Shown here in pieces: positions 1,652-15,730 of a DNA stretch of 64,000 nt; position 1 is the stretch's first letter, and each line of letters begins with the position of its first letter. The DNA is from a virus. Below the pieces are notes generated by a model. It worked only from the letters and a program-made list of their open reading frames with translations, ran no database searches and was not told the origin of the DNA. The translations under genes were made by a program, and so were the position numbers. The stretch lies in the IMG/VR virus record IMGVR_UViG_3300035670_000099, positions 1-64,000 of that record; one strand, given 5' to 3'.

Positions 1652-1783
1652 TTTCTCCTTTTGCTTTTCCATTTCGCGCATTAGCTCCTGCAAAGCTATT
1701 GCTAATGCGCGTAACTCTTTGAGTGTTTGAGCGTCTATGATGATTTCACAGACTAACTCTCCACTCTCTGCACCAGCTTTCAA
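1646..1783 (-). CDS. Candidate small protein, 45 aa, TTG start
   Basis: A minus-strand frame out of phase with the preceding gene encodes LKAGAESGELVCEIIIDAQT followed by LKELRALAIALQELMREMEK and QKEKD. The second half is a clean amphipathic helix or coiled coil with coding-like composition. The only start I see is the TTG at 1783, inside the end of the upstream gene and without a strong ribosome-binding site. It could instead be reached by a frameshift from that gene. The start is uncertain. Confidence 0.4.
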   Translation of the reverse strand: MKAGAESGELVCEIIIDAQTLKELRALAIALQELMREMEKQKEKD

Positions 1784-2036
1784 ACTCTGGTGATTGCATC
1801 GTCATTCCATGAGGCAACACATACCTTGCCTCAATCTCAGTCTTGTATAAGTGCCTCCCATTAACAGCTTTAGCAGCTGCTAATCCAGCCTTGGTGGCTG
1901 GAAAGTATCTATTCTGTTCTTCTAGCTCGTCATCGCCTAAGACGATGACAGAAACACAATAGCATGGGATTAGTCTGTCTTTGAAGACAGACAATCTATT
2001 GGCATGCCATTGTGCTGGACGTTCTAATGCTTTCAT
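1746..2036 (-). CDS. Hypothetical protein, 96 aa, downstream of a hammerhead ribozyme
   Basis: The start is the ATG at 2036 (MKALERPAQWHANRLSVFKD) because CAGGAGAAAA lies directly upstream; the frame further up runs through the ribozyme. The sequence has a YFPATKAGLAAAKA segment and ends EFESWCREWRVSL. I recognise no family. Ribozyme cleavage would leave an mRNA with a 5' hydroxyl end about 30 nucleotides before this start codon. Confidence 0.7.
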   Translation of the reverse strand: MKALERPAQWHANRLSVFKDRLIPCYCVSVIVLGDDELEEQNRYFPATKAGLAAAKAVNGRHLYKTEIEARYVLPHGMTMQSPEFESWCREWRVSL

Positions 2037-2061
2037 TTTTCTCCTGTGGGTGTAAACAGCT

Positions 2062-2118
2062 CCCACGACTGCCTTTCGGCAGTTTCGTCTACCGCTGCTA
2101 GTAGACTCGTCAGGTGGG
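2062..2118 (-). ncRNA. Type I hammerhead self-cleaving ribozyme
   Basis: The minus-strand RNA contains every invariant hammerhead element in order. These are stem I 5' strand CCCAC, core CUGACGA, stem II GUCUAC/GUAGAC closing the loop UAGCAGCG, core GAAA, stem III ACUGCC/GGCAGU with a GAAA tetraloop, cleavage nucleotide C, and stem I 3' strand GUGGG. Because stem I is the open helix this is a type I ribozyme. Cleavage is predicted between plus-strand positions 2067 and 2066. It sits between the stop of the 387-residue gene (2123) and the ribosome-binding site of the 96-residue gene, so it should cut that bicistronic mRNA between the two genes. Confidence 0.92.
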
Positions 2119-2122
2119 TGGA

Positions 2123-3286
2123 TTATTTTGCTGCCCACTTCTCAAATGATTTAACAGGTAACGAGCGCTTCTGTCTGTCAAGCACGTATTCATCATACGC
2201 ATTCAGAATACTCGTTTTAGCCGCTATCTTGGCTTCTTTCTCGCCAAGTCTTAGCTCTATTTGTGCCAGGACAGCAGCTTCATCACTGCCTAGCTCCTTG
2301 GATTTATAGCGATCAACGGCATTTAGTCCGTTCCTGCGATCGTCCATTGACTCGATAACTTGTCCCATCTCTGGGTTCCAGAAATAGGAGACAACGTAAT
2401 CGTCTCCCACCCAAAAACGCTGCTTACCAGCGTTTCTTTTTATTTTTGCAAACCAGTCGGGTACTGGTACTGCTGCTGCTTTCTTTGCAGCTTCTTCTTT
2501 TCTCTGTATATCGTATTGTTCATTGAGCATTCTTTGATGCTCAATCGTTTTGACAAATCCATCCCATGTCATATTCTCCCGTTGGAGAAATTCGTACACC
2601 CATTTCTGGATATACTTTAATACTTCTTTCTCACTCCAGATGTGAGTGAAGTTTTCATCCGCCCAGACGGTAGTGCCATCTTTATGGCGGTATTCATAAC
2701 GAGTTTCATAATCGTTATGAATATAGGTGTTATTACGCATACCGTCTCCTTCCACTAGAGATGGTATGGCTATTTCTTTCTTTCTCCCTGTTGGAGAGAA
2801 TCTTTGTCCCCAGTACTTTCTTGGTAGATTATTTACTACCGAACCAACTGCTTCCTCGATTGAGGAAGCAGCGATAATAGCTGCTTTGTATCCTGGACAC
2901 GCGTACTTATCCCAGTCGGATAAGCACGCAAAGTTTTTCTCTACTTCTTCTAGTAGAGAATTTTTACTTTCATCTTCCCAGCTAATCAACTGGGAAATTC
3001 TATCAGCATCAGTATCTATGCTTCCATAGATACTGATTTCTACTTCTTCCCAGTTTATATCTTCTGGGTTTTGGGATATTGTTAATATCCCGTTTATTAG
3101 CTTCCCATTTAAATGGGAAGCTAGTCTCTTTTGTATGTCTATGTGTAACTGATTACACTTTATTTTATAACTCATTTGTTCCTCCAATAATTTCTCAGCG
3201 TCCAGCAGTGGGAGGATATACCGCCGGCATCCAGCTTTTACTAGCACTGTGTATTTTGCTATTTGTCTCTGAATCGCCGTCGTCAT
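2123..3286 (-). CDS. Hypothetical protein, 387 aa
   Basis: A large soluble protein (MTTAIQRQIAKYTVLVKAGC) with no domain I can name. It is rich in aromatic and charged residues, has an HKDGTTVWADENFTHIWSEK region near residue 200, a WVGDDYVVSYFW strand-like segment near 290, and a helical C terminus (LDRQKRSLPVKSFEKWAAK). Its start is supported by the promoter at 3318-3347 and an AGGAGTAGGAAG ribosome-binding site. The hammerhead ribozyme begins five bases after its stop codon, so its mRNA would end in a 2',3'-cyclic phosphate inside the ribozyme. Confidence 0.7.
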   Translation of the reverse strand: MTTAIQRQIAKYTVLVKAGCRRYILPLLDAEKLLEEQMSYKIKCNQLHIDIQKRLASHLNGKLINGILTISQNPEDINWEEVEISIYGSIDTDADRISQLISWEDESKNSLLEEVEKNFACLSDWDKYACPGYKAAIIAASSIEEAVGSVVNNLPRKYWGQRFSPTGRKKEIAIPSLVEGDGMRNNTYIHNDYETRYEYRHKDGTTVWADENFTHIWSEKEVLKYIQKWVYEFLQRENMTWDGFVKTIEHQRMLNEQYDIQRKEEAAKKAAAVPVPDWFAKIKRNAGKQRFWVGDDYVVSYFWNPEMGQVIESMDDRRNGLNAVDRYKSKELGSDEAAVLAQIELRLGEKEAKIAAKTSILNAYDEYVLDRQKRSLPVKSFEKWAAK

Positions 3287-5981: not shown

Positions 5982-6362
5982 TTAGTTCCAAAATCTTGTT
6001 TTATTAAAACTCGCGTTATCCAAATTAGTTTTTTGAATAGTGCAACGCCTTAAATCTGCTTTTTTCAGATTGGCATTTTTGAATATTGTCCCATTCAAAT
6101 CAGAGTAAGACAAAATTGCTTCCTCTAAATTAGCGTCTGTAAAATTAGCATTTTTTAAATCAGCGCCTTTTAATATAGCACCATTCAATTTAGCGTTAAC
6201 TAAAATGGCATTACTTAAAACAGCGCCTGTTAAATTAGCGTTTGTCAAGTTAGCGTTTGTTAAGTCAGCACTTGTCAAATTAGCACCTATCAAATTAGCA
6301 TTTGATAAGTCGTATCCTTTCAAGTCAGCGTAACTTAAGTCAGTGTATTCGAGACTTTCCAT
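5982..6362 (-). CDS. Pentapeptide-repeat protein, 126 aa
   Basis: Residues 5 to 118 are continuous pentapeptide repeats (YADLKGYDLSNANLIGANLT, NANLTGAVLSNAILVNAKLN), giving about 22 units in a right-handed beta-helix. It is separate from the pair at the left edge and differs from it by a lysine- and asparagine-richer composition. The ATG at 6362 follows AAGGATTAAACAAAT. Function unknown; gyrase inhibition is one precedent in the family. Confidence 0.85.
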   Translation of the reverse strand: MESLEYTDLSYADLKGYDLSNANLIGANLTSADLTNANLTNANLTGAVLSNAILVNAKLNGAILKGADLKNANFTDANLEEAILSYSDLNGTIFKNANLKKADLRRCTIQKTNLDNASFNKTRFWN

Positions 6363-10230: not shown

Positions 10231-10321
10231 TATGTTATATAAAATAAAATTTATTTTACAATCTACCAATAGAGACATTACTTGGTTTACAGTAAAATAG
10301 TTGTTGCATGAAAAAATCAAA

Positions 10322-13300
10322 ATGTCAGAAGATTTTGGTGCGTTAACTGGCAATCCAGTGTTCTTTAGAACATATAGCAGATTAACAGGACACGGAAGAG
10401 AGTCATGGGAGGAGATGTGCAAACGTTCCGTTGACGGATTAGCAAAGCTGGGGAAATTTACCCCAGAAGAAATAGAACTAGTCGCCAGAATGCAGAAAAG
10501 CATAAAAGCATTGCCATCTGGAAGATGGCTATGGGTAGGCGGCACAGAGTGGCTGGATAAGCCACAGAATTACAGTGGAGCATACAATTGTACGTCCACA
10601 AATTTAACCAACTGGGATGCTTTTGCATTCATGATGGATTTAGCCATGATGGGATGTGGCACAGGCGCTGTAATTGAGCCTAAATATTATCAGCAATTAC
10701 CTACCATCAAAAATAGAATAGACATTGAGATTATTGACAAAATAGGCGAAACCCCACCATCTGAAAGGCTGGACGAGACAGTAACTGTCTTGACAGAAGA
10801 CAGTTTTACGATAAAAGTCGGAGACAGCAGACAAGGATGGGTGGAAGCATACAAGCAATTACTCCAAGTAGCTTCTGATGACACCTTTAATGGAGTTGTG
10901 GTAGTCAAAGTGTCATTAGCCAATGTACGCCCCGCTGGGGAGAAATTAAAACAATTTGGTGGTGTTGCCAATCCAGTGAAATTAGAGAATTTGTTTTATA
11001 GATGTGCAAACATCTTAAACAAAGCACATGGTAGAAAACTAACGTCACTGGAATGCTGCTTGCTGATTGATGAAGCAGCAAGCACTATAGTGGCTGGGAA
11101 CATTAGACGCTCAGCGGGCATGCGCCAGTTCACTTCTAGTGATAACGTAGCTGCTAACGCTAAAGCAAATCTATGGGAGCAAACACCAACTGGAGAATGG
11201 AGAATAGATCCAGAGAAAGATGCTTTGCGCATGGCAAATCACACCAGAGTTTTTCACCAAAAGCCTACTTATGAGGAGGTGTTTGATTCAGTAACGAGTC
11301 AATATTGGAGTGGTGAAGGAGCAATACAGTGGGCGGGTGAAGCTGTCGCCAGAGCAAATGCAGATTTATTGATTACCCAAAAGCTAAAAGCAAAGTTTTT
11401 GACTGCTTACGAGAATGGTGAAGCTAAGCAATGGATAAGAAAGCATTATCCAGACATGCCACATGCGGAGATAGAACATAGAGTAAGTACATATGGATTA
11501 AATCCATGTGTTACTGCTGATACATGGATTCACACAGAAAAAGGAGCGAGGCAAGTTAAAGACTTGATAGGCAAACAAACAAGTGTTTACGTTGATGGAG
11601 AATTATTTAGCACCACACCTGAAGGTTTTTGGCTAACAGGAATCAAGCCTGTGCTAAAAGTAATTACTCAAGAAGGATATGAGTTGCGTTTAACTGACAA
11701 TCATCAGCTACTCAAAGTTACTGCTCAGACTCAGCATAAACAATATTCTGAGTGGACTGAAGCTAAAGATTTAAGTCCAGGACATTATATTTTAGTCCAC
11801 AACCATCGTGAAGCACAGCATTGGGACAGTTTTGGAACTTTTGACGAAGGCTGGTTAATTGGCAATTTAATTGGCAATGGCAGCATCTCATCAACGCAAT
11901 GGGGAAAAACAGCACTTTTACGATACTGGGAAGATTCTCAAGATGAGATGGGAAGACATGCTGTTGCTCTACTTAAAAAAACTGTTGATTATGCCGGAAC
12001 TACAGAATCTGGACATTACTATAAACAGCAGAATTATCGAGTAGTTCAATCAACAGGATTAGCTAGATTAGCTGCTAATTATGACGTTACGTTGGATAAT
12101 AAAATGCCAACAGGTAAAATTGAAGAAGCAAGTTATGAGTTTTACCGTGGTTTTTTACGTGGCTTATTTGATGCTGATGGCAGCGTGCAAGGGAATCAAC
12201 AAAAAGGCATTAGCATCAGATTGTCACAAAGCAATCTAGAGACTTTGAAAATAGTCCAAAGAATGCTGGCGAGATTAGGTATTATCTCAACAATTTATCA
12301 AAAAGCACAACATGAACTTGTTATCAGCAATGATAATGTCTGCGTCTTCCAAGACATTATTGGATTTCAAAAACCTGACAAAGTAAATCGCTTAAATGAA
12401 TTAATTACCAGATATGAGCCAAAATTAAATCGTGAGCGATTTGTAGTTAAAATCAAAGAGATTATACCCGATGGAGTAGAAGCAGTTTTTGACTGTACTG
12501 TTCCGGGAGTTTCTCGATTTGATGGTAATGGAATTGTCACCCATAATTGTGGTGAGATTATTGGTAGTAATTTCCACTGTGTTAGTGGTGACACGCTGCT
12601 AATTACCAAAGATGGATTACACGCAATCAAAGATGTTGTAGGATGCGATGTTGAAATTTGGAATGGTAGGAATTGGAGTCAAGTACAGCCATTCAAAACT
12701 GGCAGTTCTCGCGTTCTTTATCGTGTACGATTTGCGGATGGTACGTATTTAGATGCTACCGAATATCATAGATTCTTTGTTAAGGATAGGTTTGGCAAAG
12801 AATACAAAGAAGTACAGACAAAAGACTTAATGGATGCAAGCAAGTATCGTATTCACACCAAGCCATTTACTATTCAATATGATGATGGATTGGATATTGA
12901 TACTAATTATGCTTATAGCTTGGGAGTAGCCGTAGGAGATGGCACCACAGACAAAGACAACAACGCAAAAATAAGATTGTATGGCAAAAAAATTGCTTTG
13001 TCTGTGGCAGGCAATAAGTCTCCCATCAGGGAATATGAATACGTTACAAACTTCACTGATGTTACAAATTTAAGCTTTTCTGGGGAATTTCTGAAGAGTC
13101 TTAAAACCAAACCAGAAGCATTAAACATCATAGCAAGTTGGAATCGTGAAGCAATTTTGCATTTTATTGCTGGTTTAGCAGATACAGATGGAACAAATAG
13201 TAGCGGCAATGGTATTAGAATCTACATCTCTGATTATGACAGAGCGTATAGAATACAATTGTTGCTAATTAAGTGTGGTATTCGTTCTTCTGTCAATCTT

Positions 13301-15730
13301 TGCGCTTACAAAGGAGCAGTTACAAATTATGGTGTTAGAAGTAAAGATTTGTACTCTGTACAAGTAACTGATTGTGGTAAAATCCCTTGTCAGCGATTAG
13401 ACGTAAGCCAAGGTAGAGTACCTAAATGTAAAGGCAAATGGCAAGTTATCAGGAGTGTGGAGCAATTACCGGGATTGCATGACACTTACTGTTTTAATGA
13501 ACCACAATATCATGAAGGTGTATTTGGAAACACGTTGACTGGAAATTGCAATTTGTCAGAGATACACTTAAATCAGCTCAATCCTACTGACTACAAAGAA
13601 CAAGAAGATGCTTTTAAAGCAGCTTCACTCTCAGTAGCTGCATTGCTTCACCATAGATTCACCGAGCCTATTTATCAAGAATCTAGAGAGTTAGATCCTA
13701 TTGTTGGTGTTTCCTTCACCGGATTATTTGACTTTTTTGTTCATGCTTTTGGAGCAGAATGGCTTCACTGGTGGCAACAAGAGAGAGAAGACAATGAGCA
13801 AGGCAGGATATTTAAACAAAAAGAACAGGAGTATTTATCTAGATGGAAAGACATAGTGCATCAAACTGTTTGGGAATATTGTGATAAACACAATCTTAAA
13901 CGTCCTAATCGTTGTACTACTGTCCAGCCCAGTGGGTGTCTAGATCGCACTGCATTAAGAATTTTTGATCAGGGATTACTTTATGCGGATGAATTGATAG
14001 CACCTGGCAGCGGTGAAGCTACTAATTTGAAACTAAGTGTTCGTGAAGGAGTGTCTGTCACCACTGGAATTGCTAATCAACCATTGCAGTTAATTAAAGT
14101 CAATCTGAACAATGGACGTGTTTTACGTATGACTCCAAACCATCGTCTTTCTATTGATGGAAACTGGATTTATGCGTCTGACATGGCTCCTGGAATGAAG
14201 ATTGATTTTAGTCTTGGAGAATATCAAAACAGCCAAGAGACTTCACTACTTGATATAGATCAATTTAGCTATACAAGAGAAGCAAAACAATTAGAGTCTG
14301 GGCATAATCGTGGTGGCATCACAGCAACTATCATTAAAACGCCCAAGATAATGTCTCCTGACTTAGCTTATTTTATTGGAGCATTATTTGGAAATGGATG
14401 TTTAAGTGCAACTGGACATCGTATTAGGTTTTCTAGTAATAGTTATAAATTGCTAGAAAGACTACAACAAATAGCACAAAATCTGTTTGTTTTAAATGGG
14501 AGAATCAACAAATACTCTGGCAGAGAAGCTTATGAATTAAGCATTTCTAGTGTTCAGCTTTATGATTGGTTGCAATTGAATGGAATAGCTAAAACAGAGA
14601 AAAGTCTAAATCTTGACAGAATACCATTAGCTATTCGTTGTTCCTCCAAGCAAAGTATTCTATCGTTCTTTTGTGGATTGATTGACACTGATGGATGCAT
14701 TAGAGTTAATGGCTCAATGTCCATTGACAGCGCTAGTGAAGAGTTCATTAGAAACCTTCAACAAATAGGTGAAGCTGTAGGATTGTGCTTCTCCATATTC
14801 CATAACACTGAAGGGGAGAACAACCAAGCACAGAAAAATATGTGGGGTTTATGTTTAAGCCGCATGTTATCTAAACCTGATGCTTTAGATTATCTAAACG
14901 AAAATAGTCAAAAAGCTGAGATTCGTCCTATTCCTTCACTCAAGAGAAGTTATAAATTTGATCCATATCTCATTGAATCTGTGGTGTGGGAAGAAACTCC
15001 TGATTACAGCTACGACTTTGCGGTGCAAGGAGAGGACGACAATGATTCATGGTATTGGCAAGGAGCGATTAAATCACACAACACAAAGTCTTTGCTAACT
15101 GGCGCTTCTCCTGGTTGGCATCCTCCCAAAGCACAACAATTTATCCGTCGGATTACTTTCCGTAAGAACGATCCAGTAGCATTGGCATGCATAGACTTTG
15201 GGTATAACGTAGTTCCATCACAATCAGATAAAGATGAAAATGGTAACTTATTAGACAATCCTTTTGATGAACGTTGCACAGAATGGTTAGTAGAAATACC
15301 AGTAGCAGTATCTTGGGCAAATCTACCAGGAGTTGATGTTGATATTTCTAAATTCTCGGTGTTGGCACAGTTTGATTTTTATATGCAAGTGCAGAAGTAT
15401 TACACAACTCATAATACTTCAGCCACACTTGAACTACGCCAGAACGAAATTGGTGCTTTAAGTAGAGCTATATATGACTCAATCAAGAACAATGACGGGT
15501 ATATTTCTGCTGCTATCCTTAGTCGCTTTGATGATTTCCAGTCTTATCCTAGATTGCCTTTTGAGCCTATTAGCAAGGACAAATACTTGCAGTTGGTAGA
15601 AGAAGTAAATCAAAGAAGAACTAATGATTCTTTCTTAGATGCTTTGCATAAGTATGATAATGGGTTTGATGAACAATCAGGCCCTGCCCCATGTGATTCA
15701 GACAAGTGTCTTTTACCAGAGTCAAAGTGA
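10322..15730 (+). CDS. nrdJ: Adenosylcobalamin-dependent (class II) ribonucleoside-triphosphate reductase with three inteins
   Basis: The enzyme reduces ribonucleoside triphosphates to deoxy forms using a B12-derived radical and needs no oxygen or second subunit. The 1802-residue precursor holds three inteins (347, 323 and 382 residues), leaving a 750-residue mature enzyme, the size of monomeric Lactobacillus-type reductase. Family landmarks are LPSGRWLWVGGTEW, SGAYNCTSTNL (redox cysteine), the split radical site GLNP-CGEIIGSNFH-CNLSEIHL, TTVQPSG-TKSLLTGASPGWHPP, and the C-terminal CDSDKC that passes electrons in. The ATG at 10322 is preferred over a TTG at 10301. The next gene overlaps its stop. 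Confidence 0.95.
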   Translation: MSEDFGALTGNPVFFRTYSRLTGHGRESWEEMCKRSVDGLAKLGKFTPEEIELVARMQKSIKALPSGRWLWVGGTEWLDKPQNYSGAYNCTSTNLTNWDAFAFMMDLAMMGCGTGAVIEPKYYQQLPTIKNRIDIEIIDKIGETPPSERLDETVTVLTEDSFTIKVGDSRQGWVEAYKQLLQVASDDTFNGVVVVKVSLANVRPAGEKLKQFGGVANPVKLENLFYRCANILNKAHGRKLTSLECCLLIDEAASTIVAGNIRRSAGMRQFTSSDNVAANAKANLWEQTPTGEWRIDPEKDALRMANHTRVFHQKPTYEEVFDSVTSQYWSGEGAIQWAGEAVARANADLLITQKLKAKFLTAYENGEAKQWIRKHYPDMPHAEIEHRVSTYGLNPCVTADTWIHTEKGARQVKDLIGKQTSVYVDGELFSTTPEGFWLTGIKPVLKVITQEGYELRLTDNHQLLKVTAQTQHKQYSEWTEAKDLSPGHYILVHNHREAQHWDSFGTFDEGWLIGNLIGNGSISSTQWGKTALLRYWEDSQDEMGRHAVALLKKTVDYAGTTESGHYYKQQNYRVVQSTGLARLAANYDVTLDNKMPTGKIEEASYEFYRGFLRGLFDADGSVQGNQQKGISIRLSQSNLETLKIVQRMLARLGIISTIYQKAQHELVISNDNVCVFQDIIGFQKPDKVNRLNELITRYEPKLNRERFVVKIKEIIPDGVEAVFDCTVPGVSRFDGNGIVTHNCGEIIGSNFHCVSGDTLLITKDGLHAIKDVVGCDVEIWNGRNWSQVQPFKTGSSRVLYRVRFADGTYLDATEYHRFFVKDRFGKEYKEVQTKDLMDASKYRIHTKPFTIQYDDGLDIDTNYAYSLGVAVGDGTTDKDNNAKIRLYGKKIALSVAGNKSPIREYEYVTNFTDVTNLSFSGEFLKSLKTKPEALNIIASWNREAILHFIAGLADTDGTNSSGNGIRIYISDYDRAYRIQLLLIKCGIRSSVNLCAYKGAVTNYGVRSKDLYSVQVTDCGKIPCQRLDVSQGRVPKCKGKWQVIRSVEQLPGLHDTYCFNEPQYHEGVFGNTLTGNCNLSEIHLNQLNPTDYKEQEDAFKAASLSVAALLHHRFTEPIYQESRELDPIVGVSFTGLFDFFVHAFGAEWLHWWQQEREDNEQGRIFKQKEQEYLSRWKDIVHQTVWEYCDKHNLKRPNRCTTVQPSGCLDRTALRIFDQGLLYADELIAPGSGEATNLKLSVREGVSVTTGIANQPLQLIKVNLNNGRVLRMTPNHRLSIDGNWIYASDMAPGMKIDFSLGEYQNSQETSLLDIDQFSYTREAKQLESGHNRGGITATIIKTPKIMSPDLAYFIGALFGNGCLSATGHRIRFSSNSYKLLERLQQIAQNLFVLNGRINKYSGREAYELSISSVQLYDWLQLNGIAKTEKSLNLDRIPLAIRCSSKQSILSFFCGLIDTDGCIRVNGSMSIDSASEEFIRNLQQIGEAVGLCFSIFHNTEGENNQAQKNMWGLCLSRMLSKPDALDYLNENSQKAEIRPIPSLKRSYKFDPYLIESVVWEETPDYSYDFAVQGEDDNDSWYWQGAIKSHNTKSLLTGASPGWHPPKAQQFIRRITFRKNDPVALACIDFGYNVVPSQSDKDENGNLLDNPFDERCTEWLVEIPVAVSWANLPGVDVDISKFSVLAQFDFYMQVQKYYTTHNTSATLELRQNEIGALSRAIYDSIKNNDGYISAAILSRFDDFQSYPRLPFEPISKDKYLQLVEEVNQRRTNDSFLDALHKYDNGFDEQSGPAPCDSDKCLLPESK
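11507..12547 (+). other. Intein 1 (347 aa) with LAGLIDADG endonuclease
   Basis: It starts at Cys (CVTADTWIHTEKGARQVKDL), directly after extein GLNP, and ends VTHN before the extein Cys of CGEIIG. Block B-like DNHQLLKV and terminal blocks F/G (EAVFDCTVPGVSRFDGNGIV, then THN) are present. Two dodecapeptide motifs (LIGNLIGNGS; GLFDADGS at 12161) mark a homing endonuclease that looks intact. The +1 residue is the catalytic radical cysteine of the reductase. Confidence 0.92.
12578..13546 (+). other. Intein 2 (323 aa) with LAGLIDADG endonuclease
   Basis: It starts CVSGDTLLITKDGLHAIKDV after extein SNFH and ends LTGN before extein CNLSEI. The usual penultimate histidine is replaced by glycine (GN instead of HN), a known but less common arrangement that can slow asparagine cyclisation. 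Endonuclease motifs are SLGVAVGDGT and GLADTDGT (13172). Only ten extein residues separate it from intein 1. Confidence 0.9.
13937..15082 (+). other. Intein 3 (382 aa) with LAGLIDADG endonuclease
   Basis: It starts CLDRTALRIFDQGLLYADEL after extein TTVQPSG and ends IKSHN; the +1 residue is threonine (TKSLLTG). Block B is RMTPNHRLSI. Endonuclease motifs are IGALFGNGC and GLIDTDGC (14675). The insertion point is a highly conserved active-site loop of class II reductases. Confidence 0.92.

Follow-up and report, generated by a model that had tools for sequence, protein, structure and literature searches.

The type I hammerhead ribozymes that phages and prophages carry, clustering around single genes, were published in 2011 (Perreault et al., PMC3088659), and that paper already describes phage-hammerhead pseudoknots of the kind considered below. 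The same paper describes HHphage, a hammerhead-like RNA of haloviruses HF1 and HF2 that lies 13 nt upstream of a phage gene and for which a transcript 5′ end was mapped at most three nt from the cleavage site. In engineered form, the insulator RiboJ combines the sTRSV hammerhead with a 23-nt hairpin (Clifton et al. 2018, PMC6206723), and with it both mRNA and protein are increased and the 5′ end becomes independent of the upstream sequence (PMC6206723). What hammerheads do in prokaryotes and phages is an open question according to a 2017 review (PMC6155905). The element analyzed here lies in a 64-kb viral window (the whole stretch of DNA examined, 64,000 nt of a 93.6-kb record) and, as intergenic phage hammerheads that are pseudoknotted and clustered were already on record in 2011, it belongs to a known kind.

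Read from the sequence, a complete type I hammerhead with all conserved elements occupies positions 2118 to 2062 of the minus strand, and every core and stem element named in an earlier sequence-only reading of this DNA could be located. The features of the locus, in the order in which they would be transcribed and with the evidence for each, are the following:

2123–3286, minus strand: upstream gene, 387 aa, replaced in one relative, L010/L016 (open reading frame; relatives)
2062–2118, minus strand: type I hammerhead ribozyme, stem I open, stems II and III closed (sequence; RF00163, 23.1 bits; parser and chance control)
2114–2118, minus strand: stem I 5′ strand CCCAC (sequence; invariant in the compared family)
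2107–2113, minus strand: catalytic core CUGACGA, C3 to A9 (sequence)
2087–2106, minus strand: stem II, GUCUAC 2106–2101 with GUAGAC 2092–2087, and loop II (sequence; covariation, 16 sequences)
2094–2098, minus strand: loop II strand GCAGC of the pseudoknot, partner GCUGU 2060–2056 (swap tests; per-pair counts)
2068–2086, minus strand: GAA (G12, A13, A14) 2086–2084, then stem III (sequence; stem III covariation)
2066–2067, minus strand: predicted cleavage between C17 (2067) and G2066 (position from sequence; hammerhead chemistry)
2062–2066, minus strand: stem I 3′ strand GUGGG, predicted first five nt of the downstream mRNA (sequence)
2056–2060, minus strand: GCUGU, pseudoknot strand on the product side, within the loop of the product hairpin (swap tests; per-pair counts)
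2046–2050, minus strand: second CCCAC, complement of GUGGG 2066–2062 (folding; conservation in relatives; covariation)
2041–2045, minus strand: AGGAG ribosome-binding site, directly 3′ of the predicted product hairpin (sequence)
1746–2036, minus strand: downstream gene, 96 aa, retained alongside the ribozyme (open reading frame; relatives)

The core motif CUGANGA...GAA, the A15.1–U16.1 pair and H17 at the cleavage site are all canonical by sequence and parser, and the helices around the core comprise 5, 7 and 6 bp with stem I as the open end. Stem II also has a U2100–G2093 wobble pair, and stem III pairs ACUGCC (2083–2078) with GGCAGU (2073–2068) across a GAAA loop. On the minus strand, the 387-aa reading frame (3286–2123) is followed by 4 nt, the hammerhead, 25 nt and the 96-aa frame, whose ATG at 2036 lies 30 nt from the predicted cut; the resulting leader would read GUGGG-AGCUGUUUACA-CCCAC-AGGAG-AAAA, then AUG. 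These positions agree with the previously claimed class and strand, with cleavage at 2067/2066 between two co-directional genes, 25 bases to the next start and leader of about 30 nt, while the five bases claimed between stop codon (2125–2123) and stem I have to be corrected to 4 nt and the description of the flanking genes as "early" is unproven. Neither the 96-aa nor the 387-aa protein matched a family in PHROGs, Pfam or NCBIfam.

A strict type I parser returned this site as its sole match on both strands of the window (18 pairs, 5 + 7 + 6), and 60 Markov windows of equal size, used as a chance control, yielded one match in total, with 11 pairs only; no second hammerhead copy was found in the 93.6-kb record. 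The covariance-model check named in the earlier reading, a criterion that supports membership without defining it, gave a divided outcome, as RF00163 matches the element end to end with 23.1 bits (E = 0.0021 for 301 nt and 1.5e-4 for the record) but below its gathering score of 34, which is why a default Rfam scan of the region reported nothing. Since only two of the about 32 hammerheads parsed at ten phage loci, many of them in arrays between successive genes, score above this threshold, it is too strict for phage hammerheads and uninformative for them; the standard cut-off hides most of them, and their numbers are under-annotated. The low score would be compatible with a decayed or chance hammerhead that is inactive, as would the failure of 4 of 18 assayed consensus hammerheads to cleave, reported in PMC3088659. 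We nevertheless consider such an origin barely credible given the intact core, the very low chance expectation and the fact that both closed stems and the pseudoknot have changed in a compensatory manner.

These changes were followed in an alignment of 16 phage hammerheads that share a CCCAC/GUGGG stem I, the invariance of the stem I CCCAC in this family being due to its selection on that sequence. In total, 59 cells are changed on both sides (shuffled mean 16.5) and 88.6% of cells pair, and slid controls collapse. Both-sided changes affect five of the six pairs of stem II, where 100% of cells are paired, and five of six in stem III. This covariation indicates that the hammerhead fold is under selection and, together with the chance control, upholds the claim that the fold is real. 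The exact pattern built on the window's own stem II had no match on other viral contigs, and a pattern scan of genome contigs matched solely an unrelated type I hammerhead in Desulfoscipio geothermicus (L018). In another phage lineage, a type I hammerhead at 2157–2201 of L017 (minus strand), between two short genes, has an identical stem III hairpin, ACUGCCGAAAGGCAGU, with a different stem I and without a product hairpin.

Among the relatives of the window, IMGVR 3300042908_001045 carries two diverged gene–hammerhead–gene copies near its two ends and 3300044825_003855 carries one. Stem II, GUCUAC/GUAGAC in the window, reads GUCCAU/AUGGAC, GUUCAU/GUGAAC or GUUCAU/AUGGAC in the relatives, differences that consist of compensatory changes and wobbles while the core is kept. 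In 3300044825_003855 (L010/L016) the upstream reading frame encodes a different, 188-aa protein while both the ribozyme and the 96-aa gene are retained, identifying ribozyme plus downstream gene as the co-inherited unit. The downstream CCCAC is present in every relative with this unit, although adjacent bases vary. In the 86-kb IMGVR_UViG_3300042908_001045, the copies of 387-aa gene, hammerhead and 96-aa gene are oppositely oriented (L008/L015 and L009/L014), and phage Cr-LKS4 likewise has a mirrored gene order near one end; at L008 2125–2218 (minus strand), close to the hammerhead of this relative, lies a marginal Rfam match to DUF3800-VIII RNA (40.3 bits, cut-off 40.2).

Two phages of Cylindrospermopsis raciborskii, Cr-LKS4 and CrV-01T, encode large terminases with 71% identity to that of the present phage, and their structural genes, sigma factor, helicase and lambda-like tail genes follow a broadly similar strand order, which makes a filamentous cyanobacterium the probable host. 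No type I hammerhead was found in the 99 kb searched of each of these two cultured relatives. Elsewhere in the window, an 1809-aa frame (10301–15730, plus strand) matches ribonucleotide reductase at its start and an endonuclease family further along, which may represent an enzyme gene carrying an intein or a fusion of domains, and pentapeptide-repeat proteins flank the region (5–388, 385–921 and 5982–6362, minus strand).

In the predicted tertiary contact, loop II GCAGC pairs with GCUGU shortly after the product's start, forming a 5-bp pseudoknot from loop II to the stem I side. The central contact pairs co-change in the 16 hammerheads (GGC:GCC, GAC:GUC, GGU:ACC), and the only three exceptions at these positions are the window's own family, in which a one-base offset of the register still allows 5 bp. 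Swapping partners abolishes the match, with z of 5.4 for 27 GTGGG sequences and 8.1 for 64 short-stem-I hammerheads among the matches listed; control positions show no signal (−0.9 and 0.7), and in the swap test hammerheads with a stem I of at least 6 bp give no pseudoknot signal. Neither this contact nor the product hairpin described below, the two features that bear on function, was noted in the earlier sequence-only reading.

The 3′ strand of stem I, GUGGG, has two complements, namely the upstream CCCAC with which it forms the stem and a downstream CCCAC that ends at AGGAG. Since it is thus complementary to a sequence placed before the ribosome-binding site, the end created by the cut is expected to fold back into a hairpin at the 5′ terminus, and folding of the product alone indeed predicts one directly before this site (pairing probability of about 1, −7.1 kcal/mol). 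Such complements were sought in a collection of at least 249 non-redundant phage hammerheads, which stems from pattern scans fixing stem II or stem I sequences and is not a census, by swap and shuffle tests that treat sequences without a tree. Among the matches listed, CCCAC occurs at product nt 9–45 in 16 of 27 non-redundant GTGGG hammerheads, compared with 1.4 in shuffles, and the reverse motif is absent from the same 27. Again among the matches listed, CCGC lies downstream in 46 of the 69 members of the GCGG group (shuffle mean 13.1, maximum 22 of 500) and CCAC in 24 of the 28 members of the GTGG group (shuffles 8.3, maximum 15), the cross cells standing at 26% and 0%, CCGC being absent from the GTGG group. 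When each locus contributes a single hammerhead, the own partner is present at a frequency of 0.56 versus 0.28 when swapped (z 7.9), and 0.29 versus 0.16 (z 4.3) at nt 13–45, outside the pseudoknot strand, in both cases among the matches listed; the upstream mirror control is at 0.10, and the swap test on these matches gives no product-complement signal beyond nt 45. About half of the short-stem hairpin signal falls at positions that overlap the pseudoknot strand. Overall, these sequence comparisons indicate that the downstream complement covaries with stem I across the phage hammerheads collected. Target-site duplication, considered as a source of the flanking CCCAC repeats, was ruled out on the grounds of covariation between the repeat and the intervening stem I strand.

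The signal has clear bounds. It is weak for hammerheads that belong to neither the GCGG nor the GTGG group (0.27 versus 0.14, among the matches listed), and those with a stem I of at least 6 bp lack it, so the product hairpin is not general. A first pooled test, based on the longest helix with G-U pairs allowed and covering every hammerhead, showed no more than a small excess; the short- and long-stem-I classes, which separate clearly, were mixed in it. The hairpin overlaps the ribosome site in only 4 of 61 cases with a recognizable site, among the matches listed. The long-stem class, devoid of the hairpin signal yet intergenic in phage arrays, lends weight to a reading in which the window element is an ordinary constitutive hammerhead of phage type whose only role is to separate two cistrons, its downstream CCCAC being incidental or shaped otherwise, and processing of long phage transcripts was indeed proposed in 2011 (Perreault et al., PMC3088659). 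Retention of CCCAC in relatives despite the changes around it, and a downstream complement that tracks the stem I sequence across groups, argue against a mere separator, which we regard as unlikely.

Among the matches listed, 161 of the 232 hammerheads with enough flank have a co-directional stop at most 60 nt before them (median 6 nt) and 160 have a start codon with a ribosome site at most 90 nt after them (median cut to start 37 nt); both hold for 49% of the 232, as against 6% of random positions. On some contigs the hammerheads form arrays, with eight each in L110 and L088. Arrays of four to eight type I hammerheads were seen in L110, L088, L133, L028, L095 and L244, mostly with one ahead of each successive small phage gene, and nearly all are below the Rfam cut-off where scored. 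A relaxed parser did not find the previously tested PaP3 hammerhead in bases 1–45000 of 45503, so this phage was of no use as a comparison.

We propose a model where the element acts as a pseudoknot-stabilized type I hammerhead that punctuates a phage mRNA of two genes, the cut freeing a strand for a capping hairpin, and we consider this model rather probable. The best reading of the locus is that the ribozyme would cut the mRNA and provide the downstream gene with a 5′-hydroxyl leader of about 30 nt. During co-transcriptional folding, stem I, the core and the loop II pseudoknot would form first, since the upstream CCCAC precedes the downstream one, and self-cleavage would follow between 2067 and 2066. 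Hammerhead cleavage leaves a 2′,3′-cyclic phosphate on the upstream and a 5′-OH on the downstream fragment. Stem III would close the 3′ end of the upstream mRNA, and GUGGG, freed from the short 5-bp stem I, would re-pair with the second CCCAC to form a hairpin at the 5′ extremity of the 96-aa mRNA, trapping the product and shielding its 5′-OH end, while the adjoining AGGAG would stay free for ribosomes. The likely benefit would be a stable, separately controlled downstream message, whatever gene sits upstream. Sequence and covariation support the fold, the pseudoknot, a complement ahead of the ribosome site and the retention of ribozyme and downstream gene together where the upstream gene has changed; cleavage in the cell, the order of events, stabilization and an effect on expression are inferred.

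The order of these steps bears on a further alternative. In the uncut RNA, nested energies with the pseudoknot excluded are −27.5 kcal/mol for the active fold and −27.3 kcal/mol for the alternative hairpin, so that the hairpin might inhibit cleavage instead of following it. The element could then be a regulated switch, in which GUGGG:CCCAC pairing competes with stem I before the cut and translation, temperature or an RNA-binding protein decides, a scheme with which both this near-equality and a shorter-fragment fold that even favors the alternative hairpin are consistent. Fast co-transcriptional cleavage is more likely, however, because the upstream CCCAC is made first and the pseudoknot stabilizes the active fold, and no ligand or protein site is apparent; we therefore rate a switch as quite improbable. 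Returning to the punctuation model, a covarying product hairpin would offer a testable role for such hammerheads, namely a protected 5′ end for the downstream message. Whether the short-stem-I phage hammerheads as a large class are strand-exchange devices, in which a stem I strand would complete the ribozyme and then cap the cut 5′-OH mRNA with a hairpin immediately before the ribosome site, we judge to be evenly balanced.

Compared with described systems, the window element differs from the phage RF00163 hammerheads of PMC3088659, in the part covered here, by scoring below the Rfam cut-off and by the second complement of its product strand, placed ahead of the ribosome site, of which that part makes no mention. 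HHphage differs as a core variant from an archaeal virus, according to PMC3088659. RAGATH-1 (RF03152) has the core in common with the window element, which scores 18.4 bits against that model (cut-off 56.3) and in which the extra upstream helix of RAGATH-1 is not convincingly present. No report of a product hairpin in natural phage hammerheads was found in the open-access papers searched, and the hairpin could be a new feature common to a sub-class of hammerheads. The nearest functional analogue is RiboJ, by analogy of function and not of descent: both place a hammerhead in a 5′ leader, and the downstream product starts, in the window element by prediction, with a hairpin that precedes the ribosome site. 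Unlike RiboJ, the window element is natural, stands between two genes rather than behind a promoter, and would build its hairpin by re-using the ribozyme's own stem I strand. If the short-stem-I class does work by strand exchange, phages would have arrived at the RiboJ arrangement by themselves and would employ it between genes for stable single-gene messages.
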